Notes under the pieces: model-generated
The model's database searches: none
The model's input: only the letters and a program-made list of their open reading frames with translations
Told to the model about the DNA's origin: nothing
Program-made: the position numbers and the translations under genes
Shown: in pieces, positions 47,396 to 59,568 of the stretch
Layout of the letters: the number at the start of each line of letters is the position of its first letter
Numbering within the stretch: the first letter of the stretch is position 1
DNA from: Phenylobacterium sp. RIFCSPHIGHO2_01_FULL_69_31
GTDB lineage: Bacteria > Pseudomonadota > Alphaproteobacteria > Caulobacterales > Caulobacteraceae
Assembly: GCF_001824475.1 (NCBI RefSeq)
Contig: NZ_MHXN01000045.1
Coordinates: 62,001-126,000 of the forward strand
Direction: 5' to 3'
Length of the DNA: 64,000 nt

Positions 47396-48610
47396 ATGTC
47401 GCTGCTCGACAAGCACCTGGGCTATCGCGCCCCGTTGGATGGCATCCGTGCGGCGGGCGCCGATCCCTCCGCCGTCCGATTCGACGCGGTCCTGTCCCCC
47501 ACCGAAGGCATGCTCGACGGCCGGAAGGTGATCCTTCTGGGCACGAACAACTACCTGGGCCTGACGTTCGACCCGGCCTGCATCGAGGCTTCGGCCGACG
47601 CGGTGCGCCAGTGGGGCACCGGCACCACCGGGTCGCGCTTCGCGAACGGCACCTTCGCTGGCCACACGGCGCTGGAGACGGCGCTGGCCAAGTTCTACGG
47701 CCGCAAGCACGCCATGGTCTTCACGACCGGCTACCAGGCGAACCTGGGCGGCATCTCCGGCCTGGTCGGCCGCGGGGATCACCTGATCCTGGACGCCGAC
47801 AGCCATGCCTCGATCTATGACGCCGCCAAGCTTTCGGGGGCCGAGGTCATCCGCTTCCGCCACAACGACCCCGAGGACCTGGCCAAGCGCCTGCGCCGCA
47901 TGGGCGACGCCGCCAAGGGCAGCCTCATCGTGGTCGAGGGCATCTACTCCATGATCGGCGACGTCGCGCCCCTCAAGGAGATGGTCGCGATCAAGAAGGA
48001 GGCGGGCGCCTACCTGCTGGTGGACGAGGCCCACTCCATGGGCGTCCTGGGCGAGAAGGGCCGCGGCCTGGCCGAGGCGGCCGGCGTCGAGGACGATGTC
48101 GACTTCATCGTCGGCACCTTCTCCAAGAGCCTGGGCGCGGTGGGCGGCTTCCTGGTGTCCGACGAAGACAACTTCGACCTGCTGCGGATCGTCAGCCGGC
48201 CGTACATGTTCACCGCGTCGCTGCCCCCGGCCGTGATCGCCTCGACCCTGACCGCGCTCAAGCGCCTGGAGGAAGATTCCAGCCTGCGCGCCCAGCTCGC
48301 GGCCAACGCCGACCGCCTCTACGAAGGCCTGCGCGACATGGGCTATGCCGTGGGTCCCCACGCCAGCCCCATCACCGCCGTCGTGATGCCCGACCAGGCC
48401 ACGGCCGTGATGATGTGGAACGCCCTGCTCGCCAACGGCGTCTACCTGAACCTGGCGATCCCGCCGGCCACGCCCGAGAACAAGTCGCTGCTGCGCTCCA
48501 GCGTCAGCGCCGCGCACACGGCCGAGCAGATCGACGCCGTGCTGGATATCTTCGAGCGCCTGGGCCTCGAGTACGGCCTCCTTCAGCGCCCGCGCCGCGC
48601 CTCCGCCTGA
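47396..48610 (+). CDS. spt: Serine palmitoyltransferase
   Basis: A 404-residue PLP-dependent alpha-oxoamine synthase condensing L-serine with an acyl thioester to 3-ketosphinganine, the committed step of sphingolipid synthesis. PLP Lys244 in GTFSKSLG; His137 in DADSHASIYD stacks on the cofactor; DEAHS (210-214) is the Asp/His pair; GTGTTGSRFANGT near 74-86 is the family glycine loop. It is soluble with no membrane segment, as in other bacterial SPTs. Downstream end overlaps the convergent cpgC by 28 bases. Confidence 0.96.
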   Translation: MSLLDKHLGYRAPLDGIRAAGADPSAVRFDAVLSPTEGMLDGRKVILLGTNNYLGLTFDPACIEASADAVRQWGTGTTGSRFANGTFAGHTALETALAKFYGRKHAMVFTTGYQANLGGISGLVGRGDHLILDADSHASIYDAAKLSGAEVIRFRHNDPEDLAKRLRRMGDAAKGSLIVVEGIYSMIGDVAPLKEMVAIKKEAGAYLLVDEAHSMGVLGEKGRGLAEAAGVEDDVDFIVGTFSKSLGAVGGFLVSDEDNFDLLRIVSRPYMFTASLPPAVIASTLTALKRLEEDSSLRAQLAANADRLYEGLRDMGYAVGPHASPITAVVMPDQATAVMMWNALLANGVYLNLAIPPATPENKSLLRSSVSAAHTAEQIDAVLDIFERLGLEYGLLQRPRRASA

Positions 48611-49494
48611 CGCCGTCGTAGTTCGAGCCACGCGCCGGGCGCCGCCAGGAACGGGTGGCGCTCGCGGAAGGGCGTGATCGCAAGCTCGATGCCGGTGTGC
48701 CGCTCGACCTTGTAGGCCGCATAGCGCGCCGCCCCGTCGAAGGTGAAGGCCGCCTTCAGGATCCGCGCCACGTTCAGCGGCTTGCCCATGAGGTCCGGCA
48801 GCGTCCAGCCTGGCACACCGCGCTTCACGGGCCGCAGCGTCCCGCCCTCAGCCGCATACCCGACGCCGCCCGCATCCCAGGCCAGCGGCAGGATCGCGGC
48901 GTAGCGGTCCCCGCCCGCCGCCATCACGGTGTCCGCGCGACCGACCCCCTCCACCCGGAACTCCGCCGCATAGGTGCGCCGGAACAGCGCCCGCCAGAAG
49001 GCGTCGGCCGGTCCGGCGTGCGGCCCCAGCGCGGCGGCGTATCGCGCTGCGGTCACCGCCGCGGCCGTGACCGCCTGGGCCGCAGCCTCGGCCGCTGCGG
49101 GGTCCGTAGCCCACACGCGCTGCGCCGGCTGGACGAACCGGGCCCAGATCGTGGTGTCCAGCGTCCGCCCCTCCGCCGCCCGCTGGAAGGTCGCCAGCGG
49201 CAGGGTCGCCACCTTGGCGCGCAGCACCCGGCCGCCCACCTGGACCTCGTGGTAGCTGACCTCCGGCCAGATCACCCGCTCGACCAGCCCATGGAGTCCG
49301 CGGCGATGCGGCCGCCGGGTCAGGCGGTAGAAGTCGAGGATGCCGGAAAGGTCGCCCGTCCGCAGCGTCGAGCCATAGTAGAGGATCGCCGCATCGCGGG
49401 CCGGATCGGCCAGGGCCCGGGCCAGCTCCGCCACCGCCTCGGGCGCGCTCGACGCCAGCTCGGCCTCGATGCGCCGGGCAAGCTCTCCCGTCAC
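48583..49494 (-). CDS. cpgC: Tam41-like nucleotidyltransferase of the ceramide-phosphoglycerate operon
   Basis: A 303-residue soluble protein. YYGSTLRTGDLSGILDFY (about 39-56) has the GS plus spaced Asp pattern of pol-beta-type nucleotidyltransferases. The following VSYHEV...RVLRAKVATLPLATFQRAAEGRTLDTTIWARFVQPAQRVW resembles mitochondrial Tam41, the CDP-diacylglycerol synthase. By analogy it would make CDP-ceramide (or CDP-lipid) from ceramide-1-phosphate and CTP. Position directly convergent to spt and after the lipid kinase corresponds to Caulobacter cpgC. GTG start overlapping the kinase stop (GTGA). The Tam41 link is my pattern reading and needs a profile search. Confidence 0.7.
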   Translation of the reverse strand: MTGELARRIEAELASSAPEAVAELARALADPARDAAILYYGSTLRTGDLSGILDFYRLTRRPHRRGLHGLVERVIWPEVSYHEVQVGGRVLRAKVATLPLATFQRAAEGRTLDTTIWARFVQPAQRVWATDPAAAEAAAQAVTAAAVTAARYAAALGPHAGPADAFWRALFRRTYAAEFRVEGVGRADTVMAAGGDRYAAILPLAWDAGGVGYAAEGGTLRPVKRGVPGWTLPDLMGKPLNVARILKAAFTFDGAARYAAYKVERHTGIELAITPFRERHPFLAAPGAWLELRRRQAEARRGR

Positions 49495-50408
49495 GGGATC
49501 ACGAACTCCAGCGCCGGCCCCTGGCGCACGGTAAGGTCGCCGCCCTTGTACGGCTCGCCGTCCAGCACGAAGTCGCCGTCGAACGAGAGGTCGAAGCTGT
49601 CGACGTCGTGACGCCGGTAGCCGCAGGGCTCCAGCCAGGGCGCGTCCTCCCCCCGGACGATCACCGGCAGGGCGCGGAGCAGCCGCCTGGGCGGCGCCTC
49701 CACCGACAGCACCTTCAGGCCCTCCCGCGGCTCGCCGTAGGGCTTCAGCCCCAGCGGGAAGCGCTTGAGCGTCGAGGCCATGACCAGAAACCAGCGGCGC
49801 TCCTCGGGCGTCGGCGCGATGGACAGGCTTGCCGCCTCCCCGCGCCGCCAGCGATCGCCCGCGCCCCCCAGGACGGTGCGCACCAGCGCCCCGGCCATGG
49901 TGATCCCCACGGCCGCATCGTCGACGAAGCCGCGCCCGTGATTCTTCTGCGCCAGCTTGGTCGCCCGCACGAAGGCGCCGACGCCCAGCAGGAAGCCGCG
50001 CCGCTCGGGCGCCGTCTGGCCCGCCCGGACCACCTCCAGGCACTGGCGGCGCTTGGTGGGCCGGCCCGCCTGGCAGGCCGCGAGGATCTGTTCCAGCGTC
50101 GTGCCCAGGGGCGTCTCGATATCGAGGGCCAGGGCGTTGGTCTTGCCGTTCGGCAGCACCGCCAGCCGCGGCAGGCGCCCGTCGAACGCCTCGGGCAGGC
50201 GCGTCAGCACCTCGCGCACCGTGCCGTCGCCGCCGTCGATGACCACCAGTTCGACGCCCGTGGCCGCGAAGCGGCGGAGGCCGGCCAGCAGGTGGCTGGG
50301 CTCCTCGGGAACGATGTCCAGCACGTCTTCGGGCAAGCAGGGCGGCGCGCCGCCGGCGCCGCGGTTGCGGTGGCTGTAGCGGTTCCAGATGAGGCCGGCG
50401 CGGATCAC
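49491..50408 (-). CDS. cpgB: Ceramide kinase, diacylglycerol-kinase family
   Basis: A 305-residue lipid kinase of the DAGK catalytic family. The nucleotide motif GGDGT is at 59-63 (VVIDGGDGTVREVL), with LAVLPNGKTNALALDIETP following and the C-terminal beta sandwich ending FDGDFVLDGEPYKGGDLTVRQGPALEFVIP. In Caulobacter the matching gene phosphorylates ceramide. The first residues VIRAGLIWNRYSHRNRG follow the pattern of the family N-terminus. GTG start overlapping the cpgA stop (GTGA). Confidence 0.9.
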   Translation of the reverse strand: MIRAGLIWNRYSHRNRGAGGAPPCLPEDVLDIVPEEPSHLLAGLRRFAATGVELVVIDGGDGTVREVLTRLPEAFDGRLPRLAVLPNGKTNALALDIETPLGTTLEQILAACQAGRPTKRRQCLEVVRAGQTAPERRGFLLGVGAFVRATKLAQKNHGRGFVDDAAVGITMAGALVRTVLGGAGDRWRRGEAASLSIAPTPEERRWFLVMASTLKRFPLGLKPYGEPREGLKVLSVEAPPRRLLRALPVIVRGEDAPWLEPCGYRRHDVDSFDLSFDGDFVLDGEPYKGGDLTVRQGPALEFVIP

Positions 50409-51511
50409 CGCGACAGCCAGGAGACCACGCGCTCGCGCGGCATGGCCATGGCCTGGACCACCTGGGCGCCGTGGACGATCAGGCACAGGCCCGTCCAGAC
50501 GGCGACAAGGAAGAAGCCGATCTGCGGATAGCCCAGCAGCCAGGCCGGGGTCAGGATCAGCAGGTTCGGGTTCCGCCGGGCGGTGATCAGGCGGAAGAAG
50601 CTGTCGAACGGCCGCCAGGCGTGAACGTGGAAGCCGAAGAGGCGCATGAAGATCCCCTCCTCCACGCGCTGCAGCACATAGCCCGCGAGGATCACCGCCA
50701 GCGACAGCTCGGCCCAAGGCGGCGGCAGCCCCACCTGGAAGCAGCCGACGTACCACGCCCACCACCAGAACGGCGGGTGGATCAGGTCGATGCCGTGGTC
50801 GAAGACGTTGCCGATGGCCGACGAGGTCAGGGTCACCCGCGCCAGCTTGCCGTCGACGGTATCGAGGAAGGTCATGATCCAGGCGCAGACCAGGCCCCAG
50901 CCGAACTGGCCCTCCCAGAACAGCCAGAAGGCCGCCAGGACCAGCAGGAAGCCCGCGAAGGTCACATGGTTGGGCTTCAGGCCCGCGATAGCGCACCACC
51001 GGGTGACGATCCGGGCCGGCACGGGCCACCAGTACTTGGTGACCACGTCCGTGACGCCCTTGTACGAGCCGGCGAAGGTCCGGGCCTCCACCGCGCGGAC
51101 GTTGTCGGGGGTCAGCCGCACCAGCACCGGCGGCTCGCGCTTGCGCAGCGCCTCGTTGTAGGCGAGCTCGGCCAGCGAAAGGCGCTGCAAGCCCCCGGGG
51201 TCCGCGCCCCGCTCCAGCGCCGCGGCCGCTTCGGCGACCCGCGCGGCCGGCACGTGCGCGGCCACCGCCTCGCCCGCGTCGGTCACCAGAACCGAGCCCG
51301 GACGCTTCGCCAGCGTGGCCAGCAGGGATTCGTCATAGACCCAGGCGCCCAGCGCCAGCACCACGCCGCCCGAGGCCGGCGCGGTCTCGACGACGTTCAG
51401 CTTCGCCCTCACGAAGGTCCGGCGCAGCCGCTCGCGCGCCGTCATCCCCCAGATGCGCACCTCGCCCGCGCCCAGGATCATCCCGGCCGGCGCGGCCGCC
51501 GTCTCAGCCAT
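50405..51511 (-). CDS. cpgA: CDP-alcohol phosphatidyltransferase with extra N-terminal domain
   Basis: A 368-residue protein. The C-terminal half (about 165-368, six helices) is a CDP-alcohol phosphotransferase with D-x-x-D-G-x-x-A-R-x8-G-x3-D-x3-D seen as DTVDGKLARVTLTSSAIGNVFDHGID. The N-terminal 150 residues look like an incomplete nucleotidyltransferase-like domain (ILGAGEVRIWGMTARERLRRTFVRAKL, VLVTDAGEAVAAHV). In this context it should join CDP-activated ceramide to a glycerate-type acceptor, or CDP-acceptor to ceramide. First gene of cpgABC. ATG 51511 preferred over TTG 51520. Confidence 0.85.
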   Translation of the reverse strand: MAETAAAPAGMILGAGEVRIWGMTARERLRRTFVRAKLNVVETAPASGGVVLALGAWVYDESLLATLAKRPGSVLVTDAGEAVAAHVPAARVAEAAAALERGADPGGLQRLSLAELAYNEALRKREPPVLVRLTPDNVRAVEARTFAGSYKGVTDVVTKYWWPVPARIVTRWCAIAGLKPNHVTFAGFLLVLAAFWLFWEGQFGWGLVCAWIMTFLDTVDGKLARVTLTSSAIGNVFDHGIDLIHPPFWWWAWYVGCFQVGLPPPWAELSLAVILAGYVLQRVEEGIFMRLFGFHVHAWRPFDSFFRLITARRNPNLLILTPAWLLGYPQIGFFLVAVWTGLCLIVHGAQVVQAMAMPRERVVSWLSR

Positions 51512-51587
51512 GGTCTGCAAAAGCTCGCGCGCCTCTCACGCAAATCAGTGGAACCTGATACCGAGCGCCGTTCCGTTAGGAAAGCTC

Positions 51588-52472
51588 GTGACCACCTTCC
51601 GCCTCGCCCACCTGTCGGACCTGCAGCTTCCGCCGCCGCCCCTGCCCTTCCGCTGGCGTGACGCCGCCTCCAAGCGCCTGCTGAGCCGGTTCGCCTGGCG
51701 GCGCAAGCAGCACAGGCACCTCCAGGCCGTGCTCGACGCCATCGCGGCCGACGTCGCCGCACGTGCCCCCGATCACATCGCTATAACCGGCGACGTCATC
51801 AACTTTGCGACGCCCGAGGAGTTCGCCGCCGCCCGCCAGTGGCTGGAAGCCCTGGGCGCGCCCGACCACATCACCGTCAGCCCCGGCAACCACGACGCCC
51901 TCAGCGCCGCGGGCGCGCCGAAGGGATTCGAGCCCTGGAAGCCGTGGTTGTCCGACGGCGCCGAGGGCGGTTTCCCATATCTGCGCGTCCGCGGGCCGGT
52001 GGCGCTGGTCAACCTGTCGTCCGCCGTGCCGACCGCCCTCCACCTGGCGCAGGGTACGCTCGGTCGGGCGCAGATCGAGGCGGCCGGCCGGCTGCTGCGC
52101 GAAAGCGGCGAGCGCGGCCTCTACCGCGTGGTCCTGCTCCATCACCCGGTGGCGCGGGGCGTCGTGGCGGGCCGCAAGGCGCTGACCGACGCGGAGGCCC
52201 TGCGGGCCATGCTGGCCGAGACTGGCGCCGAGCTGGTCCTTCACGGCCATGCCCACGAGGCGTTGATGACGTCGACGCCGGGCCCGCGCGGCGCCATCCC
52301 GATCCTCGCGGTCCCCGCGGCCTCCACCCCCGCCGGCGGCCGCGGCCAGCCCGCCCGCTGGAACGAGATCGCCATCACCGCGGAGGACAGGCGCTTCCGG
52401 ACAGAGGTCACCGCGCGCGGGATCACGCCGACCCTGGCCGTCGAGACGCTGGGGAGCTTCGTCCTGTGCTAG
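51588..52472 (+). CDS. Metallophosphoesterase with altered first motif
   Basis: A 294-residue calcineurin-type phosphoesterase. Motifs: HLSDLQLP (position of D-x-H, but His is Gln), GDVINF, GNHD, HHP, GHAH. The other metal residues are present, so activity may be kept with an altered first metal site. It lies in the sphingolipid island divergent from cpgA and could remove a phosphate from a lipid or headgroup intermediate; this is context only. GTG start with AGGA six bases upstream. Its stop shares a CTAG with the DUF2141 gene. Confidence 0.85.
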   Translation: MTTFRLAHLSDLQLPPPPLPFRWRDAASKRLLSRFAWRRKQHRHLQAVLDAIAADVAARAPDHIAITGDVINFATPEEFAAARQWLEALGAPDHITVSPGNHDALSAAGAPKGFEPWKPWLSDGAEGGFPYLRVRGPVALVNLSSAVPTALHLAQGTLGRAQIEAAGRLLRESGERGLYRVVLLHHPVARGVVAGRKALTDAEALRAMLAETGAELVLHGHAHEALMTSTPGPRGAIPILAVPAASTPAGGRGQPARWNEIAITAEDRRFRTEVTARGITPTLAVETLGSFVLC

Positions 52473-54644: not shown

Positions 54645-55699
54645 CCCTGGGCGGCTATCTTCTGAAGCTGGTGGGATCGCGCATCCTGATCGCGCTGCTG
54701 GTGCTGGTCGGCATCCTGCAGATCCTCGACCTGTTGGACGTCACGAACGACATCCTCGACCGCGACCTGGGCGCCGCCGGCGTGGGATACTACGCCATGC
54801 TGCGCCTGCCGCGGCTCATCGAGCAGGCCGCGCCGCTGGCGGTGCTGGCCGGGGCCCTGTTCGCCTTCGGCAAGCTGGCCGGAGACAGCGCGGTGACCGC
54901 CATGCGCTCCACGGGCATCTCCACCTACCGCATCACCTTGATGGCCGTCCCGGCGGCCCTGGTCCTGGCGCTGACCCAGCTCGCCATCGGCCTGCAGATC
55001 GCGCCCCGCACCGACAGCATGCTGTCCGACTGGTGGCAGGCCAGCACGCCCAAGGACAAGGCCGAGAGCGTGGATCCCGTGACCTTCCGCGTCGGCGACG
55101 AGATCGTGGTGGCCGTCCCGCGCGATCCCGACGGGCGCAGCCTGGAGCAGGTCACGATCTATCGCCGGGACGCCAATGGACGCCTCGTGCAGCGCACCAG
55201 CGCCCAGGCCGCCGTGTTCGAGAACGAGCGCTGGCGGCTGGTCGAGCCGCGATTCGAGAGCCTGGGAACCGCCAGCATCGCCGAGGGACAGGCGCGCTCC
55301 ATGGACTGGACGGAGAACCTGCGACCCAGCGACGTGCGGATGCTGGCCGCGGGCGAGACCACGGTCACCGCCGCGGAGGCCCGGCGCGCCCTCACCGGCG
55401 GGCTCTCGGTGCGGCCGCGCACCTACTACGACACCCAGCTCCAGCGGGCCTGGGCCGCGCCCCTGGCATGCCTGGTGATGCTGTTGCTGGCCGCGCCCGC
55501 GTCGCTGGCGAACTTCCGCGGCGGCGGGGCGACCCTGATGGTCCAGTGCCTGGCCGCGGGCCTGCTCTACCTGGTGTTCGACGGCGCATTCACTGCGCTG
55601 GGCCAGAACGGCGCGGCGCCCCCGATCCTGGCGGCCTGGGCGGCGCCGGCGATGTTCGCCGCGCTCGGGGTGACCGTGCTGCTCTATCTGGAAGGATGA
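54641..55699 (+). CDS. lptG: LptG/YjgQ-family permease (second copy type)
   Basis: A 352-residue partner of the previous protein: helices at about 8-30, 47-68 and 95-115, jellyroll about 125-250 (VSVDPVTFRVGDEIVVAVPRDPDG-like strands), helices about 270-348. The two form the permease heterodimer that would pair with the LptB ATPase encoded elsewhere. GTG start overlaps the lptF-like stop and its own stop overlaps the bcerS ATG, giving tight coupling of lipid transport to ceramide synthesis. Confidence 0.85.
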   Translation: MTLGGYLLKLVGSRILIALLVLVGILQILDLLDVTNDILDRDLGAAGVGYYAMLRLPRLIEQAAPLAVLAGALFAFGKLAGDSAVTAMRSTGISTYRITLMAVPAALVLALTQLAIGLQIAPRTDSMLSDWWQASTPKDKAESVDPVTFRVGDEIVVAVPRDPDGRSLEQVTIYRRDANGRLVQRTSAQAAVFENERWRLVEPRFESLGTASIAEGQARSMDWTENLRPSDVRMLAAGETTVTAAEARRALTGGLSVRPRTYYDTQLQRAWAAPLACLVMLLLAAPASLANFRGGGATLMVQCLAAGLLYLVFDGAFTALGQNGAAPPILAAWAAPAMFAALGVTVLLYLEG

Positions 55700-56838
55700 T
55701 CGTGGCGGGGGGCGTCGATATCGTCCCGGTCGGCTCCAAGGCGGAGCTGGACCGGTTCATCCGCGTGCCCATGCGGCTGGGCGAACGCGATCCGAACTAC
55801 ATCGCCCCGTTGATCCTGGAACGCGGCGAGTCGCTGACCCCCAAGGGCAACCCCTTCTTCGAGCATGCGGACGTCCAGTTCTGGCTGGCGGTGAAGGACG
55901 GCCGGGACGTCGGCCGCATCAGCGCCCAGGTCGACCATCTGAACCCCCAGACCCGGCAGGGCGTCGGTCACTTCGGCATGATCGCGGCCGAGGACGATCC
56001 AGCGGTGTTCGAGGCGCTTTTCGCCGCGGCCGAGGCCTGGCTCAAGGCCAAGGGCTGCCGGGTCGCGATGGGGCCGGTGAACCTCTCCACCAACGAGGAG
56101 GTGGGGTTGCTGGTCGAAGGGCACGACACCCCGCCGATGTTCATGATGAGCCACGATGCGCCCCATACGCCCGGCCGCATCGAGGGCGCGGGCTACGCCA
56201 AGGCCAAGGACATCTTCGCTTACGTCTGCAGCGTGGCCGACGACCTGCCCGCCCCCATCCGGCGGCGGATCCGCAAGGGCCTGCCCGAGGGCGTGACGCT
56301 CCGGACGCTGAAGATGAAGCGCCTCGATGAGGAGGTTCGCACGCTGACGGCGATCCTCAACGACGCGTGGTCGGACAACTGGGGCTTCACACCGACCACC
56401 GAGGCCGAGACCAAGGCGCTGGCCACGACCTTGAAGCTGCTGATCGACGCCCGCCTGGCCTGGTTCGCCGAGATCGACGGCGAGCCGGCGGGCTTCATGA
56501 TCCTCCTGCCCAACATCAACGAGGCGATCGCCGACCTGAAGGGCAAGCTGTTCCCGTTCGGCTGGGCCAAGCTCCTCTGGCGGCTGAAGGTGAAGGGCCC
56601 GAAGACGGGCCGGGTGCCGCTGATGGGCGTGCGGCGCAAGTTCGCAAACAGCCTGCGCGGCCAACTCCTGCCTTTCCACCTCATCGATGCGGTGGCCCAG
56701 GCCGCCCGCAAACAGGGCTACGAGCGCTACGAGCTGTCGTGGATCCTCGAGGACAACATGGCCATGCGCCGCATCTGCGACGCCGGCGGGGCCAGGGTCT
56801 ACAAGACCTATCGGCTCTACGAGAAGGCGCTGGCGTGA
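55696..56838 (+). CDS. bcerS: Bacterial ceramide synthase (GNAT-like N-acyltransferase)
   Basis: A 380-residue GNAT-fold protein (VDIVPVGSKAELDRFIRVPMRLGERDPNYIAPL, then GHFGMIAAEDD, CRVAMGPVNLSTNEEVGLLVEGHDTPPMFMMSHD, and a second acetyltransferase-like half with ILNDAWSDNWGFTPTTEAE and YERYELSWILEDNMAMRRICDAGG). It resembles the soluble acyltransferase that N-acylates the sphingoid base in Caulobacter ceramide synthesis. ATG overlaps the lptG-like stop. A GTG two codons on is possible. Confidence 0.88.
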   Translation: MIVAGGVDIVPVGSKAELDRFIRVPMRLGERDPNYIAPLILERGESLTPKGNPFFEHADVQFWLAVKDGRDVGRISAQVDHLNPQTRQGVGHFGMIAAEDDPAVFEALFAAAEAWLKAKGCRVAMGPVNLSTNEEVGLLVEGHDTPPMFMMSHDAPHTPGRIEGAGYAKAKDIFAYVCSVADDLPAPIRRRIRKGLPEGVTLRTLKMKRLDEEVRTLTAILNDAWSDNWGFTPTTEAETKALATTLKLLIDARLAWFAEIDGEPAGFMILLPNINEAIADLKGKLFPFGWAKLLWRLKVKGPKTGRVPLMGVRRKFANSLRGQLLPFHLIDAVAQAARKQGYERYELSWILEDNMAMRRICDAGGARVYKTYRLYEKALA

Positions 56839-57584
56839 CGGCGTTCCAGGCGCTGGTGCTGGCGGGCTCGCGCGGCGGCGACGACCCGGTGGCGGCCTAT
56901 GGCGGCGCCTCGCACAAGGCGCTGATCCGCCTGCAGGGCGAGACGCTGCTGGCGCGGGTGGTGGGCGCGGTGCGGGCGGCCGGCGCCACGCGCGTCGCGG
57001 TGATCTCCAGCCATCCCGAGGTCCGCGCCGAGATCGCACGCCTGGGCGCCGAGGCGCTGGACGAGGCGGCGGGCCCCAGCCTGAGCGTCCGGGCGGGCGC
57101 GTTGCGCCTGGGAACGCCGCTCCTGGTCACCACGGCCGACCACGCCCTGCTGGAACCGGCCTGGATTACGCGCTTCCTGGCCGACACGCCGCCCGACGCC
57201 GACGTCACGGTCCTGGTCGCCGCCCGCGCGACGGTCGAGGCGGCGGCGCCCGGCACGAAGCGCACCTGGCTCAAGCTCGCCGATGGCGACTGGTCAGGCT
57301 GCAACCTCTTCTACCTGGCCAACGACCGGGCCCTCGGCGTCATCGACCTCTGGCGACGCGTCGAAGCCGAGCGCAAACGGCCCTGGAAGATGGCCCAGAT
57401 CCTCGGCCCTGGAATGCTTCTGCGCTATCTCAGCCGCCGGCTGGGGCTGCGGGATGCGGCGGCCCGCCTCGGCGCCCTGGCGGGCGTCCGCGCCGGCATC
57501 GTCGAGACGCCCTTCGGGCTGGCTTCGGTGGACGTCGACAAGCCGGCCGACCTCGACCTCGTCCGCGAGCTGACCAGTCGCTAG
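56835..57584 (+). CDS. MobA-like nucleotidyltransferase next to ceramide synthase
   Basis: A 249-residue NTP-transferase-fold protein. It starts FQALVLAGSRGGDDPVAAYGGASHKALIRLQGETLLARVV (G-rich nucleotide loop, then K-A-L as in MobA), has LLVTTADHALL (the metal Asp is in TADHAL) and ends FGLASVDVDKPADLDLVREL. It would transfer a nucleotide to a small phosphate such as a glycerol- or glycerate-phosphate headgroup precursor; substrate unproven. GTG start overlaps the bcerS stop. Its TAG stop shares CTAG with the convergent sensor gene. Confidence 0.85.
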   Translation: MTAFQALVLAGSRGGDDPVAAYGGASHKALIRLQGETLLARVVGAVRAAGATRVAVISSHPEVRAEIARLGAEALDEAAGPSLSVRAGALRLGTPLLVTTADHALLEPAWITRFLADTPPDADVTVLVAARATVEAAAPGTKRTWLKLADGDWSGCNLFYLANDRALGVIDLWRRVEAERKRPWKMAQILGPGMLLRYLSRRLGLRDAAARLGALAGVRAGIVETPFGLASVDVDKPADLDLVRELTSR

Positions 57585-58663
57585 GCGGCGTTGGCCCGCC
57601 GTACGGTCTCCGTGGCCGCGCCGCGCTCGTCCTGGACGATGCAGCCGTACCAGCCCAGGCCTTCGTAGGTCTCGTAGCCCGGTGTGAGGGCATAGCCGAC
57701 GGTCACGCCCTGGGCCGCATAGCTGCCCATGCTCTCCGCGCTCGCCGGAAGGCTGAACGTGTCGGCGAGTTCGCCCCGGCGGTCGGACGCAGCCAGCACC
57801 CGGCCGGTGCGGTCCAGCAACAGGACGCGCGAGCGCTGCCGCTCCTCGTCGGTGAGGCGCACCCCGTCGACGACCGCGTGGGCCTGCGGCTGCCAGTCGA
57901 AATGGATGCCGAGCACCCCGATGACTTCGCCGTTCACGGCGCCGTTGCGCCGGATCGCCGCGGCATAGGTAGCGACCGGGGCGTCGTTCAGCAGTGTGGC
58001 GCGCTCCACGTCGCAGGCCACGAAATCCTGTCCCGAGGCGGTCGCCTTGGCGTTCTTGAACCAGCCGGCGTTGGCCACGGAGCTGCCGGCGACCCGCGGA
58101 TAGCGCTCGGGCCGGCCCGTCGCGATCACCCGCCCCTCCGCATCGCAGATCCACAGGTCGAGATAGACGGTGTAGGCGTCGAGAATGACCTTCAGGCGCG
58201 CGCTGGCGTGCCGGGCCGCGGCGTCGGTGCCCGCGCCGGCGCAGTCCACGACCGCGGAGTCGGTGGCCCACCAGCGGACGTCGCAGGTCCGCTCATAGAG
58301 GTTCCGGTCGATGATCTCGATGGCGTTCAGCGCCAGGTCGGCCAGACGCTGCCCGCGGAGATGGCCAAGGATCGCGCCGCCGACCGCGGACAGCTCGCGC
58401 AGGTCGCCCTGCACCTGGCTCTGCAGGTCCGCCGTCACCTCGTCGATGCGGGACGAGATCTGCTTGAACTCCTCCGCCACGACCGAGAAACCGCGGCCGG
58501 CCTCCCCGGCCCGCGCGGCCGTGATCAGGGCGTTGATGGCCAGCATCTTCGCCTCGCGGTTGATGCGGGCGATCTCGCCGATGCTGGTCGCGGCGGCCGT
58601 GGACAGCCGCTCGGACAGCTCGAGGATCCGCTCGGGAACCAGGGCTTCTTCGCTGTCGGACAA
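57581..58663 (-). CDS. Soluble MCP-like signal protein with C-terminal Cache-type sensor
   Basis: A 360-residue protein with no membrane helix and inverted order: the chemoreceptor signalling segment comes first (about 20-75, INREAKMLAINALITAARAGEAGRGFSVVAEEFKQIS, the conserved hairpin tip region). It is followed by DVRWWATD (about 128-135) and a sensory Cache/dCache-like module (about 140-300, LDLWICDAEGRVIATGRPERYPRVAG and VIGVLGIHFDWQ). The receptor half is short and lacks the adaptation helices. Possible regulator of chemotaxis or of diguanylate cyclases. An inverted repeat GCGTTA-acgg-TAACGC lies at 58698-58713 upstream. Confidence 0.8.
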   Translation of the reverse strand: MSDSEEALVPERILELSERLSTAAATSIGEIARINREAKMLAINALITAARAGEAGRGFSVVAEEFKQISSRIDEVTADLQSQVQGDLRELSAVGGAILGHLRGQRLADLALNAIEIIDRNLYERTCDVRWWATDSAVVDCAGAGTDAAARHASARLKVILDAYTVYLDLWICDAEGRVIATGRPERYPRVAGSSVANAGWFKNAKATASGQDFVACDVERATLLNDAPVATYAAAIRRNGAVNGEVIGVLGIHFDWQPQAHAVVDGVRLTDEERQRSRVLLLDRTGRVLAASDRRGELADTFSLPASAESMGSYAAQGVTVGYALTPGYETYEGLGWYGCIVQDERGAATETVRRANAA

Positions 58664-58818: not shown

Positions 58819-59568
58819 CTAGGCGCCGGCCGGCGCCGCCCATCCACTGGAAAGACGGGTCAGGTTCTCGACATCCTGAGGGAAATCCATCTCGCCCCAC
58901 TCGAGGCCCTCGATGGACACCACCTTTACATCGACGCCCGCGCGAGCCAGTTCGTCGATGACCGAAAGATACCAGCGGCGCAGCCCTTCCGGCGTCTGCA
59001 GCACCTGCTCGACACCCGCCGCGAACTTCGCCGCTCCCGCCTTGGAGAAGCGCAGGAAGCCGATCGACTCGGCGTCATAAGCCTCGATCGTCTTGCCGAT
59101 GGCCTTCAGCCGGCCGTGCTCGGTCAGCACCTTCATGTCGTCGGCGTCGTAGGCGGGCTTCCGATCGATGGTGACCGTGATCTCGGCGGGCGGGGCGGCG
59201 AGCAGGGCCTCCGCGACACCCGGCCCGAACAGGGTGTCGCCGTTGAGGATCAGCACCTCGCGGTCGAACTCCTGGCGCACGATCCAGCACGAGGCGGTGT
59301 TGTCCGACACCGTGTAGAAGGGATTGAAGGCCAGCCGCACCGGCATGGTGAGGTCCAGGGCCGCGACCTCGGCCTCGACGGCGTCGGCGCGGAAGCCCGT
59401 GACGATCACGGCCTCCTGCACTCCGGCCGCCTGCAGGCGCAGGAGCTGCCACGCCAGAAGCGTACGGCCGGACAGCTCGATCAGGCATTTCGGACGGGTC
59501 TCGGTCAGCGGCAGCAGCCGCTTGCCCTGCCCTGCAGCGAGGATGATGGCTCTGTTGGGCGAGGTCAC
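58819..59568 (-). CDS. Sugar/choline-phosphate-type nucleotidyltransferase
   Basis: A 249-residue NTP-transferase: AIILAAGQGKRLLPLTETRPKCLIELSGRTLL (signature with R-x-x-P-K-x-L), VLILNGDTLFGP (metal Asp), VTIDRKPAYDADDMKVL and a C-terminal GLEWGEMDFPQDVENL. It resembles the LicC/choline-phosphate or phosphosugar cytidylyl/thymidylyl transferases. It stands alone on the minus strand; a link to the nearby sphingolipid genes is not supported by position (74 bases from the sensor gene and separate). Confidence 0.85.
   Translation of the reverse strand: MTSPNRAIILAAGQGKRLLPLTETRPKCLIELSGRTLLAWQLLRLQAAGVQEAVIVTGFRADAVEAEVAALDLTMPVRLAFNPFYTVSDNTASCWIVRQEFDREVLILNGDTLFGPGVAEALLAAPPAEITVTIDRKPAYDADDMKVLTEHGRLKAIGKTIEAYDAESIGFLRFSKAGAAKFAAGVEQVLQTPEGLRRWYLSVIDELARAGVDVKVVSIEGLEWGEMDFPQDVENLTRLSSGWAAPAGA

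Follow-up and report, generated by a model that had tools for sequence, protein, structure and literature searches.

Organization of the locus

The window, which here means the whole 64,000-nucleotide stretch of Phenylobacterium sp. DNA that was analyzed, contains a Caulobacter-type ceramide-phosphoglycerate (CPG/CPG2) cluster. Its genes are homologous to those of the Caulobacter crescentus CPG/CPG2 cluster (CC_1168-CC_1152) and follow the same order, and no mechanistic difference between the two was seen. The proteins of the Caulobacter vibrioides locus (L108) share 61% (CpgA), 47% (CpgB), 49% (CpgC), and 61% (CpgD) identity with those of the window. The relevant features are as follows.

47396..48610, plus strand: serine palmitoyltransferase (SPT; NF047599, 659 bits versus a cut-off of 500)
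48583..49494, minus strand: cpgC, Tam41-fold nucleotidyltransferase, proposed CTP:ceramide-1-phosphate cytidylyltransferase (AF2 model, Foldseek, invariant residues)
49491..50408, minus strand: cpgB, ceramide kinase (DAGK_cat, GGDGT)
50405..51511, minus strand: cpgA, CDP-alcohol phosphotransferase, Af2299/IPCT-DIPPS-like (Pfam, motif, model fold)
51453..52472, plus strand: metallophosphoesterase homologous to CC_1158, of uncertain start (its ORF and the start of cpgA overlap)
55696..56838, plus strand: ceramide synthase CerS homologue (CC_1154), named by the gene order given in the available text of PMC11324152
56835..57584, plus strand: NTP1153 (our label), CC_1153/CCNA_01211 homologue, MobA/CofC-like nucleotidyltransferase
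58819..59568, minus strand: cpgD, CTP:phosphoglycerate cytidylyltransferase homologue (CDP-glycerate), CpgA partner (family matches, co-occurrence)

The ORF coordinates indicate that cpgC, cpgB, and cpgA are joined by 4-bp start/stop overlaps, and the span 48583-51511, which the initial annotation had singled out as a possible CDP-ceramide pathway, is exactly these three genes, coding for proteins of 303, 305, and 368 amino acids, respectively. The SPT gene is convergent with cpgC, the NTP1153 gene has a GTG start that overlaps the end of the CerS gene, and the position of the CerS homologue matches that in C. vibrioides.

Published genetics from C. crescentus provide the functional frame. CC_1160 and CC_1161 (CpgC) are required for CPG, CpgA (CC_1159) is required for CPG2 only and is dispensable for CPG, and mutants of CC_1152 and CC_1153 have CPG levels that exceed the wild type.

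CpgB is a DAGK-type lipid kinase

CpgB was first read as a DAGK-type kinase from its GGDGT motif. This assignment is confirmed by the sequence VIDGGDGT together with a DAGK_cat score of 44.0 bits (cut-off, 23.6), which place the protein among the DAGK-type lipid kinases. Ceramide kinase activity has been published for C. crescentus CpgB, according to the available text of PMC10331486.

CpgC resembles Tam41 in fold and conserved residues

When the AlphaFold model of CpgC (pLDDT, 93.6) was searched against the PDB with Foldseek, Tam41 CDP-diacylglycerol synthases were the five best matches (probability 1.00; E values of 6e-7 to 1e-5), aligned over 277-288 columns. The matched entries are 6ig4, 6ig2, and 7ecd, the latter two with CTP. 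TM-scores were moderate (0.48-0.60; rmsd 4.2-8.8). The match to the Tam41 fold (nucleotidyltransferase plus winged-helix domain), taken as a whole, runs the length of the protein. The relation to Tam41 thus held in structure prediction, where Tam41 ranked first.

The YGS...D pattern that had originally suggested Tam41 also proved robust: the window protein has YYGS followed by D, and across all 109 sequences compared, Y40, G41, S42, and D54 do not vary. These four residues, along with K94, R119, P123, Y175, and R180, align with residues that are invariant in three Tam41s, and E178 is aligned to an invariant D. Within the 109 sequences, no acid before E178 other than D54 is fully invariant. The accessible portion of PMC11646218 describes Tam41 as having kept just one member of the acid triad customary for the nucleotidyltransferase fold, and this combination of a single acid of the triad with a GS motif is found in CpgC as well.

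Sequence profiles give a more divided picture. The window CpgC matches no Pfam family, even at E<=10, and a PF09139 (Tam41/Mmp37) search of the window's own genome returned no match; across 299 genomes of the phylum, there were 6 weak matches, none above the cut-off. Among 29 aligned CpgC sequences (L012, with an internal stop, was left out), two match PF09139 at E<=10 and the other 27 do not: L031 lies above the cut-off (28.8 versus 24 bits; E 9.8e-7), and L017 falls short of significance (E 0.18). L033, a relative outside the 29, scores 21.8 bits, below the cut-off. The CpgC family therefore touches PF09139 at its edge, and the window CpgC is not filed there. PDB sequence searches by CpgC, its family profile, L009, L031, and L004 gave no Tam41 match. 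A profile-profile comparison of the CpgC family with three Tam41 sequences scored 31.1, against 21.9 for the best of 200 column shuffles (hhalign in local mode, with scores from 200 of 200 shuffles); hhalign's own probability was only 17%. Profile searching, which had been suggested as a check, thus favors the relation at the level of the family, while PF09139 misses the window protein. The Tam41 likeness proposed for cpgC stands on fold, invariant residues, and the L031 score, but not on any Pfam match of the protein itself. CpgC shares only 10-13% identity with Tam41, and its nearest relatives (68-80% identity) are Phenylobacterium and other Caulobacteraceae records.

Genomic association with ceramide synthesis

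Whereas Tam41 acts on phosphatidic acid, the cpgC gene is linked to ceramide genes. SPT was found in 41 of 42 CpgC-bearing alphaproteobacterial genomes and in 1 of 38 others, and therefore ceramide is the likely lipid. The genome counts come from a single search of 385 genomes with one CpgC sequence, so distant CpgC proteins may have escaped it. Among the 42 CpgC matches, two are partial and one is split across contigs, and the Fisher values ignore the relatedness of the genomes. The spt gene lies within 3 kb of cpgC in 28 of the 41 genomes and is convergent with it in 27 of those 28. CpgB accompanies CpgC in 78 of 80 loci.

As a separate observation, neighbor clustering of 53 loci without SPT, six of them read by eye on one strand, pointed to ribulose-phosphate epimerase and purH as neighbors of cpgC.

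CpgA and CpgD occur together

The CDP-alcohol transferase motif reported for cpgA is genuine. CpgA scores 41.8 bits against CDP-OH_P_transf (PF01066; cut-off, 22), and the sequence D..DG..AR.{8}G...D...D, which we take to be the class I CDP-alcohol phosphotransferase signature, is present in 36 of 36 CpgA rows (the window and 35 of 37 loci, omitting L060 and L103); CpgA thus belongs to this class. Its N-terminal domain is cytidylyltransferase-like and lacks the nucleotide signature of an active cytidylyltransferase that would define an IPCT-DIPPS front domain (0 of 36 rows, versus 20 of 20 for CpgD, whose rows comprise 17 of 27 loci, two others, and the window). Against NF041135, CpgA scores 25.1 bits (cut-off, 580).

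The model fold of CpgA matches Af2299 (4o6n; TM 0.69/0.75) and Archaeoglobus IPCT-DIPPS (4mnd), with which it shares cytidylyltransferase-like and CDP-alcohol phosphotransferase domains; these relatives use soluble CDP-alcohols. In contrast to the IPCT-DIPPS type, the cytidylyltransferase here is a separate protein, CpgD. Six long helices follow a juxtamembrane one in the CpgA model, as read from the helix list of the model. Because the six-helix form is associated with soluble acceptors in the available part of PMC4634129, CPG would seem ill-suited as the acceptor of CpgA.

Of 67 CpgC-bearing genomes, 38 have both CpgA and CpgD, neither was found in 29, and none is mixed. A profile search for CpgA covered 54 of these genomes (the 42 plus 12 of 25 named ones), the other 13 being read from loci, and presence was called at E<1e-100 for CpgA and E<1e-80 for CpgD; some of the searched genomes supplied profile rows and so match by construction. 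Weaker CpgA-profile matches (E 1e-9 to 1e-3) occur in several CpgA-less genomes, and the CpgD profile matches at 1e-30 in one CpgA-less genome (G334) and in two CpgC-less genomes. The NTP1153 profile was built from 20 of 39 loci, five others, and the window. Genome comparison thus separates a head-group core, CpgB-CpgC, from an extension, CpgA-CpgD, a split that predicts CPG-only species.

The initial annotation had taken a CDP-ceramide intermediate to explain a need for all three genes. This idea of a single pathway requiring each of them fails: in C. crescentus, CpgA is required for CPG2 only, no CpgA was found in 29 of the 67 CpgC-bearing genomes, and CpgA occurs strictly with CpgD.

Search for the condensing enzyme

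An enzyme joining CDP-ceramide to (phospho)glycerate is still missing from the cluster. A condensing enzyme beside cpgBC was set aside after a search for the CDP-alcohol phosphotransferase signature alone. In the set L040-L119, the signature is present at 37 of 80 loci and lies within CpgA each time, apart from one additional ORF located at the L068 edge. In the set L166-L202, it is present at 15 of 37 loci, and 0 of the 17 CpgA-less ones have it; second CpgA-like genes exist among these ORFs. In both the window genome and that of C. vibrioides, the only PF01066 genes detected at E<=0.001 were those for PgsA and CpgA. PssA was discarded as a candidate, since no such gene was found in these two genomes.

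PgsA is the sole CDP-alcohol phosphotransferase type common to five minimal genomes, and it was not found in two metagenome-assembled genomes (G655 and G676). Its naming relies on NCBIfam for 5 proteins and, in 27 of 29 genomes, on the similarity of the top-scoring hits; in a further PgsA set of 37, it was verified for one. PgsA is perhaps the condensing enzyme, a guess by elimination.

Proposed pathway and alternatives

We propose, with a probability of roughly 60%, that cpgB, cpgC, and cpgA serve two successive steps of CPG2 head-group synthesis, in which CpgC makes CDP-ceramide and CpgA does not use it. CpgB would phosphorylate ceramide, as others have shown in C. crescentus, and CpgC would couple ceramide-1-phosphate with CMP from CTP to give CDP-ceramide. 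A separate CDP-alcohol phosphotransferase outside the cluster, perhaps PgsA, might then condense (phospho)glycerate with CDP-ceramide to form CPG. CpgD would supply CDP-glycerate, an activity shown by others, from which CpgA may add the second phosphoglycerate, yielding the anionic sphingolipid CPG2 as the end product of both steps. CDP-ceramide synthase is the best reading of CpgC, and a likely one, given its fold, conserved residues, SPT association, and published genetics. We found no report of a CTP-dependent CpgC product and no mention of CDP-ceramide in the literature searched.

Activation of ceramide by CpgC is not a new idea. Olea-Ozuna et al. (2024), in the available text of PMC11324152, proposed that CC_1161 yields NDP-activated ceramide, on the basis of an InterPro domain, left the condensing enzyme open, and placed CC_1159 at a later step. 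The initial annotation agrees with that text on CpgC and differs in putting CpgA at the first condensation. The mechanism leading from ceramide-1-phosphate to CPG is termed unidentified in a paper of 2025 and a preprint of 2026. If our proposal is true, a Tam41-type CDP-ceramide synthase fills this gap, and CTP activation enters sphingolipid synthesis. Bacterial phosphosphingolipids can replace lipopolysaccharide in Caulobacter.

Four alternatives merit consideration. First, CpgC might perform both half reactions, activating ceramide-1-phosphate with CTP and holding the intermediate until glycerate displaces CMP to give CPG directly. The cpgC mutant is without CPG, only the kinase is also required for CPG among the other cluster genes tested, and the minimal genomes have no common CDP-alcohol phosphotransferase type except PgsA. 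The closest folds are plain cytidylyltransferases, however, and we know of no precedent for a Tam41 catalyzing both halves, making this scheme unlikely.

Second, the head group could be built first, with CpgD and CpgA acting as a split counterpart of the archaeal IPCT-DIPPS pair (di-inositol-phosphate synthase) that joins CDP-glycerate to soluble phosphoglycerate; the dimer would then be passed to CDP-ceramide, and CPG and CPG2 would arise in parallel. The modeled CpgA architecture, which equals that of Af2299/IPCT-DIPPS, its six predicted long helices, the CpgA/CpgD pairing with 0 exceptions in 67 genomes, and a nearby phosphoesterase gene are all in keeping with this order, as are mutants that lose CPG2 while retaining CPG. 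Nonetheless, the elevated CPG of the CC_1152 and CC_1153 mutants resembles a precursor-product relation, and no soluble di-phosphoglycerate dimer is known to us; we regard the scheme as distinctly improbable. We give a low probability to its broader form, too, in which CpgC makes CDP-ceramide that accepts either a single or a CpgD/CpgA-built soluble di-phosphoglycerate head, with parallel formation of CPG and CPG2.

Third, the condensation of CDP-ceramide with the head group may fall to CpgA, in parallel to the action of PgsA on CDP-diacylglycerol. This was the full scheme first put forward, and its kinase and Tam41-type steps are supported by fold, residues, SPT, and genetics. CpgA is a true CDP-alcohol phosphotransferase in the gene string of cpgC, and six-helix members typically take soluble acceptors, some with CDP-lipid donors, in the available text of PMC4634129. 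However, CpgA as a user of CDP-ceramide is very hard to reconcile with its dispensability for CPG in C. crescentus, its absence from the matches in 29 of 67 CpgC-bearing genomes, its occurrence only with CpgD, and fold relatives (Af2299 and DIPP synthase) that process no lipids according to the same text. The proposed mirror of phosphatidylglycerol synthesis consequently lacks its last enzyme.

Finally, that CpgC is an auxiliary CDP-diacylglycerol synthase using phosphatidic acid, the reaction that its nearest fold relatives catalyze, is scarcely credible in view of the SPT distribution (41 of 42 versus 1 of 38 genomes) and the loss of CPG from the cpgC mutant.

Genomic setting of cpgABC

In the window, cpgABC sits within a counterpart of the sphingolipid cluster known from Caulobacter. 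The three genes are arranged on the minus strand with a 4-bp overlap between each start and the preceding stop (48583-51511).

50405-51511, minus strand, cpgA
49491-50408, minus strand, cpgB
48583-49494, minus strand, cpgC
57581-58663, ORF between the CC_1153 homologue and cpgD, methyl-accepting-like in appearance (by eye)

The other members are a flippase, an acyl-activating enzyme, an SDR, serine palmitoyltransferase (SPT), a metallophosphoesterase, a HIT protein, a second LptF and LptG, ceramide synthase (CerS), the CofC-like nucleotidyltransferase NTP1153 (CC_1153), and CpgD, a homologue of CTP:phosphoglycerate cytidylyltransferase. The nearest relatives of CpgC are Phenylobacterium and other Caulobacteraceae records (68-80% identity), and the source genome is, judged by sequence, Phenylobacterium-like. 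Compared with Caulobacter vibrioides, CpgB and CpgC (48583-50408) share 47-49% identity, and CpgA, CpgD, CerS, and SPT share 61-70%; LptF2, LptG2, CerR, the flippase, and the phosphoesterase are intermediate, at 50-53%.

CpgC resembles Tam41

The predicted structure of CpgC has the fold of Tam41, and at the sequence level the CpgC family borders on PF09139. An AlphaFold2 model built on the CpgC alignment (pLDDT 93.6, pTM 0.90) had 465 matches in the PDB at E<=10, of which the five best were all Tam41 CDP-DAG synthases (6ig4, 6ig2, and 7ecd; E 6e-7 to 1e-5, probability 1.00, 277-288 columns), in agreement with the initial annotation of CpgC as Tam41-like. TM-scores to Tam41 were moderate (0.48-0.60; rmsd 4.2-8.8), and aminoglycoside nucleotidyltransferases followed with worse E-values.

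At the profile level, the proposed kinship was borne out in part. The window CpgC alone is not recognized by Pfam and stays out of PF09139 because it falls below the cut-off. Within a family alignment of 29 sequences, one member (L031) exceeds that cut-off (28.8 versus 24 bits), the match of another (L017) is not significant (E 0.18), and the remaining 27 gave nothing for PF09139 at E<=10. Another relative, adjoining a CpgB-like gene named by eye, scored 21.8 bits. Aligned with three Tam41 sequences, the CpgC profile was colinear over 168 columns with a score of 31.1, at a probability of 17%; for comparison, the highest score among 200 column shuffles was 21.9, reversing the alignment gave 10.6, and eight further families from the cluster gave 12.8-20.3. 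In this alignment, Y40, G41, S42, D54, K94, R119, P123, Y175, and R180 are identical to residues that do not vary among the three Tam41 sequences, and an invariant Asp stands opposite E178; all of these CpgC positions are conserved at 99-100% among 109 CpgC sequences. Of the three acids that belong to the nucleotidyltransferase fold, Tam41 is described, in the text available, as keeping one (PMC11646218), and CpgC is consistent with this trait, since D54 is its sole fully invariant acid before E178 (n=109).

Ceramide as the probable lipid

A single-sequence search of 385 alphaproteobacterial genomes found CpgC in 42. SPT exceeded its curated cut-off in 41 of these, the lone exception being G334, versus 1 of 38 CpgC-less genomes. 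At the G334 locus (L169, contig C41), an SPT-like aminotransferase (275 bits versus a cut-off of 500) occupies the usual position adjoining cpgC. The spt gene lies within 3 kb of cpgC in 28/41 genomes and is convergent with it in 27 of those 28, while CpgB accompanies CpgC in 78/80 other loci. We infer that the product of CpgC is CDP-ceramide.

CpgA is paired with CpgD

CpgA is a true CDP-alcohol phosphotransferase by domain and signature. Its model (pLDDT 85.8) matches Af2299 (4o6n; TM 0.69/0.75) along the full length, as it does IPCT-DIPPS (4mnd) and the Renibacterium PIP synthase structures 5d91 and 5d92, which are chimeras carrying the Af2299 front domain; lipids are not processed by Af2299 or DIPP synthase (PMC4634129, in the portion available). 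A nucleotide-binding signature is present in 0/36 CpgA front domains versus 20/20 CpgD sequences.

Of the 42 CpgC-bearing genomes, 24 gave a CpgA match (profile E<1e-100); CpgD (E<1e-80) was detected in the same 24 and in none of the other 18. Among 25 further CpgC-bearing genomes, CpgD occurs in 14, all with CpgA, and was not found in 11, all without it, so that over all 67 genomes both were found in 38 and neither in 29. This strict pairing agrees with a scheme already in print that has CpgD providing CDP-glycerate to CpgA (PMC12275187 and PMC13228409, available text), and with C. crescentus genetics, in which CC_1159 (CpgA) is required for the ceramide-phosphoglycerate lipid CPG2 and dispensable for CPG (PMC11324152, available text). 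Both lines of evidence weigh against the earlier proposal that CpgA acts on CDP-ceramide. The donor and acceptor of CpgA are best regarded as putative.

A second CpgA-like gene lies between CerS and LptG2 in five loci (L187, L190, L191, L193, and L194), scoring 198-228 bits against the CpgA profile (E 1e-57 to 1e-67); it may perhaps perform a further head-group transfer.

A candidate condensing enzyme

At E<=0.001, PF01066 detects two genes in the window genome, PgsA (124.6 versus a cut-off of 109.1 bits) and CpgA, and the same two in C. vibrioides. Three CpgA-less genomes (G026, G158, and G256) also have two each, PgsA and a PssA-type gene, the latter above its cut-off in two of the three. 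PgsA is therefore the sole PF01066 type common to these five genomes. The best PF01066 match was PgsA-like in 27 of 29 genomes of one search set, the other two, the MAGs G655 and G676, having no match; in another set of 37 genomes, each had 2-8 matches, and the best match was named in one genome. By elimination within PF01066, which is not proof, PgsA may be the condensing enzyme; an enzyme from another family may also fill this role. Separately, one sphingolipid locus carries at its outer end an ORF (L068:3-692) that is distinct from CpgA and bears the CDP-alcohol phosphotransferase signature.

Relation to published work

The idea of ceramide activation is already published: Olea-Ozuna 2024 proposed that CC_1161 (CpgC), to which InterPro assigns a CDP-DAG synthase domain, could produce NDP-activated ceramide, and left the enzyme of the subsequent condensation unknown (PMC11324152, available text). 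The term CDP-ceramide was not found in the literature searched, and in the available text of two later publications, a paper from 2025 and a preprint from 2026 (PMC12275187, PMC13228409), the CpgC mechanism is still called unidentified. Neither the Tam41 structural match nor the CpgA/CpgD co-occurrence was found in the portions of the literature on this pathway that were available. The activities of CpgB and CpgD and the mutant lipids were demonstrated by others; the fold, conserved residues, and gene associations were established in the present analysis.

NTP1153 and the metallophosphoesterase

In C. crescentus, CC_1153 is reported as required for CPG2, and its mutant grows poorly; ceramide builds up in CC_1153, CC_1161, and CC_1159/1160 mutants and not in a CC_1152 mutant (PMC11324152, available text). 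Strong NTP1153 homologues (E<1e-59) occur in 38/38 CpgA-bearing and also in 16/29 CpgA-less genomes, indicating a role not restricted to CpgA. The other 13 CpgA-less genomes have a weaker, perhaps paralogous match (11) or none (2), and 0/18 CpgC-less genomes have one at E<=1e-10. The NTP1153 gene of the window (56835-57584) has a weaker second copy in the same genome (G000:C14:185684-186391). A CC_1158-type metallophosphoesterase adjoins cpgBC in 8/17 CpgA-less loci (L166-L169, L174, L176, L179, and L182) and is thus not bound to the CpgA step.
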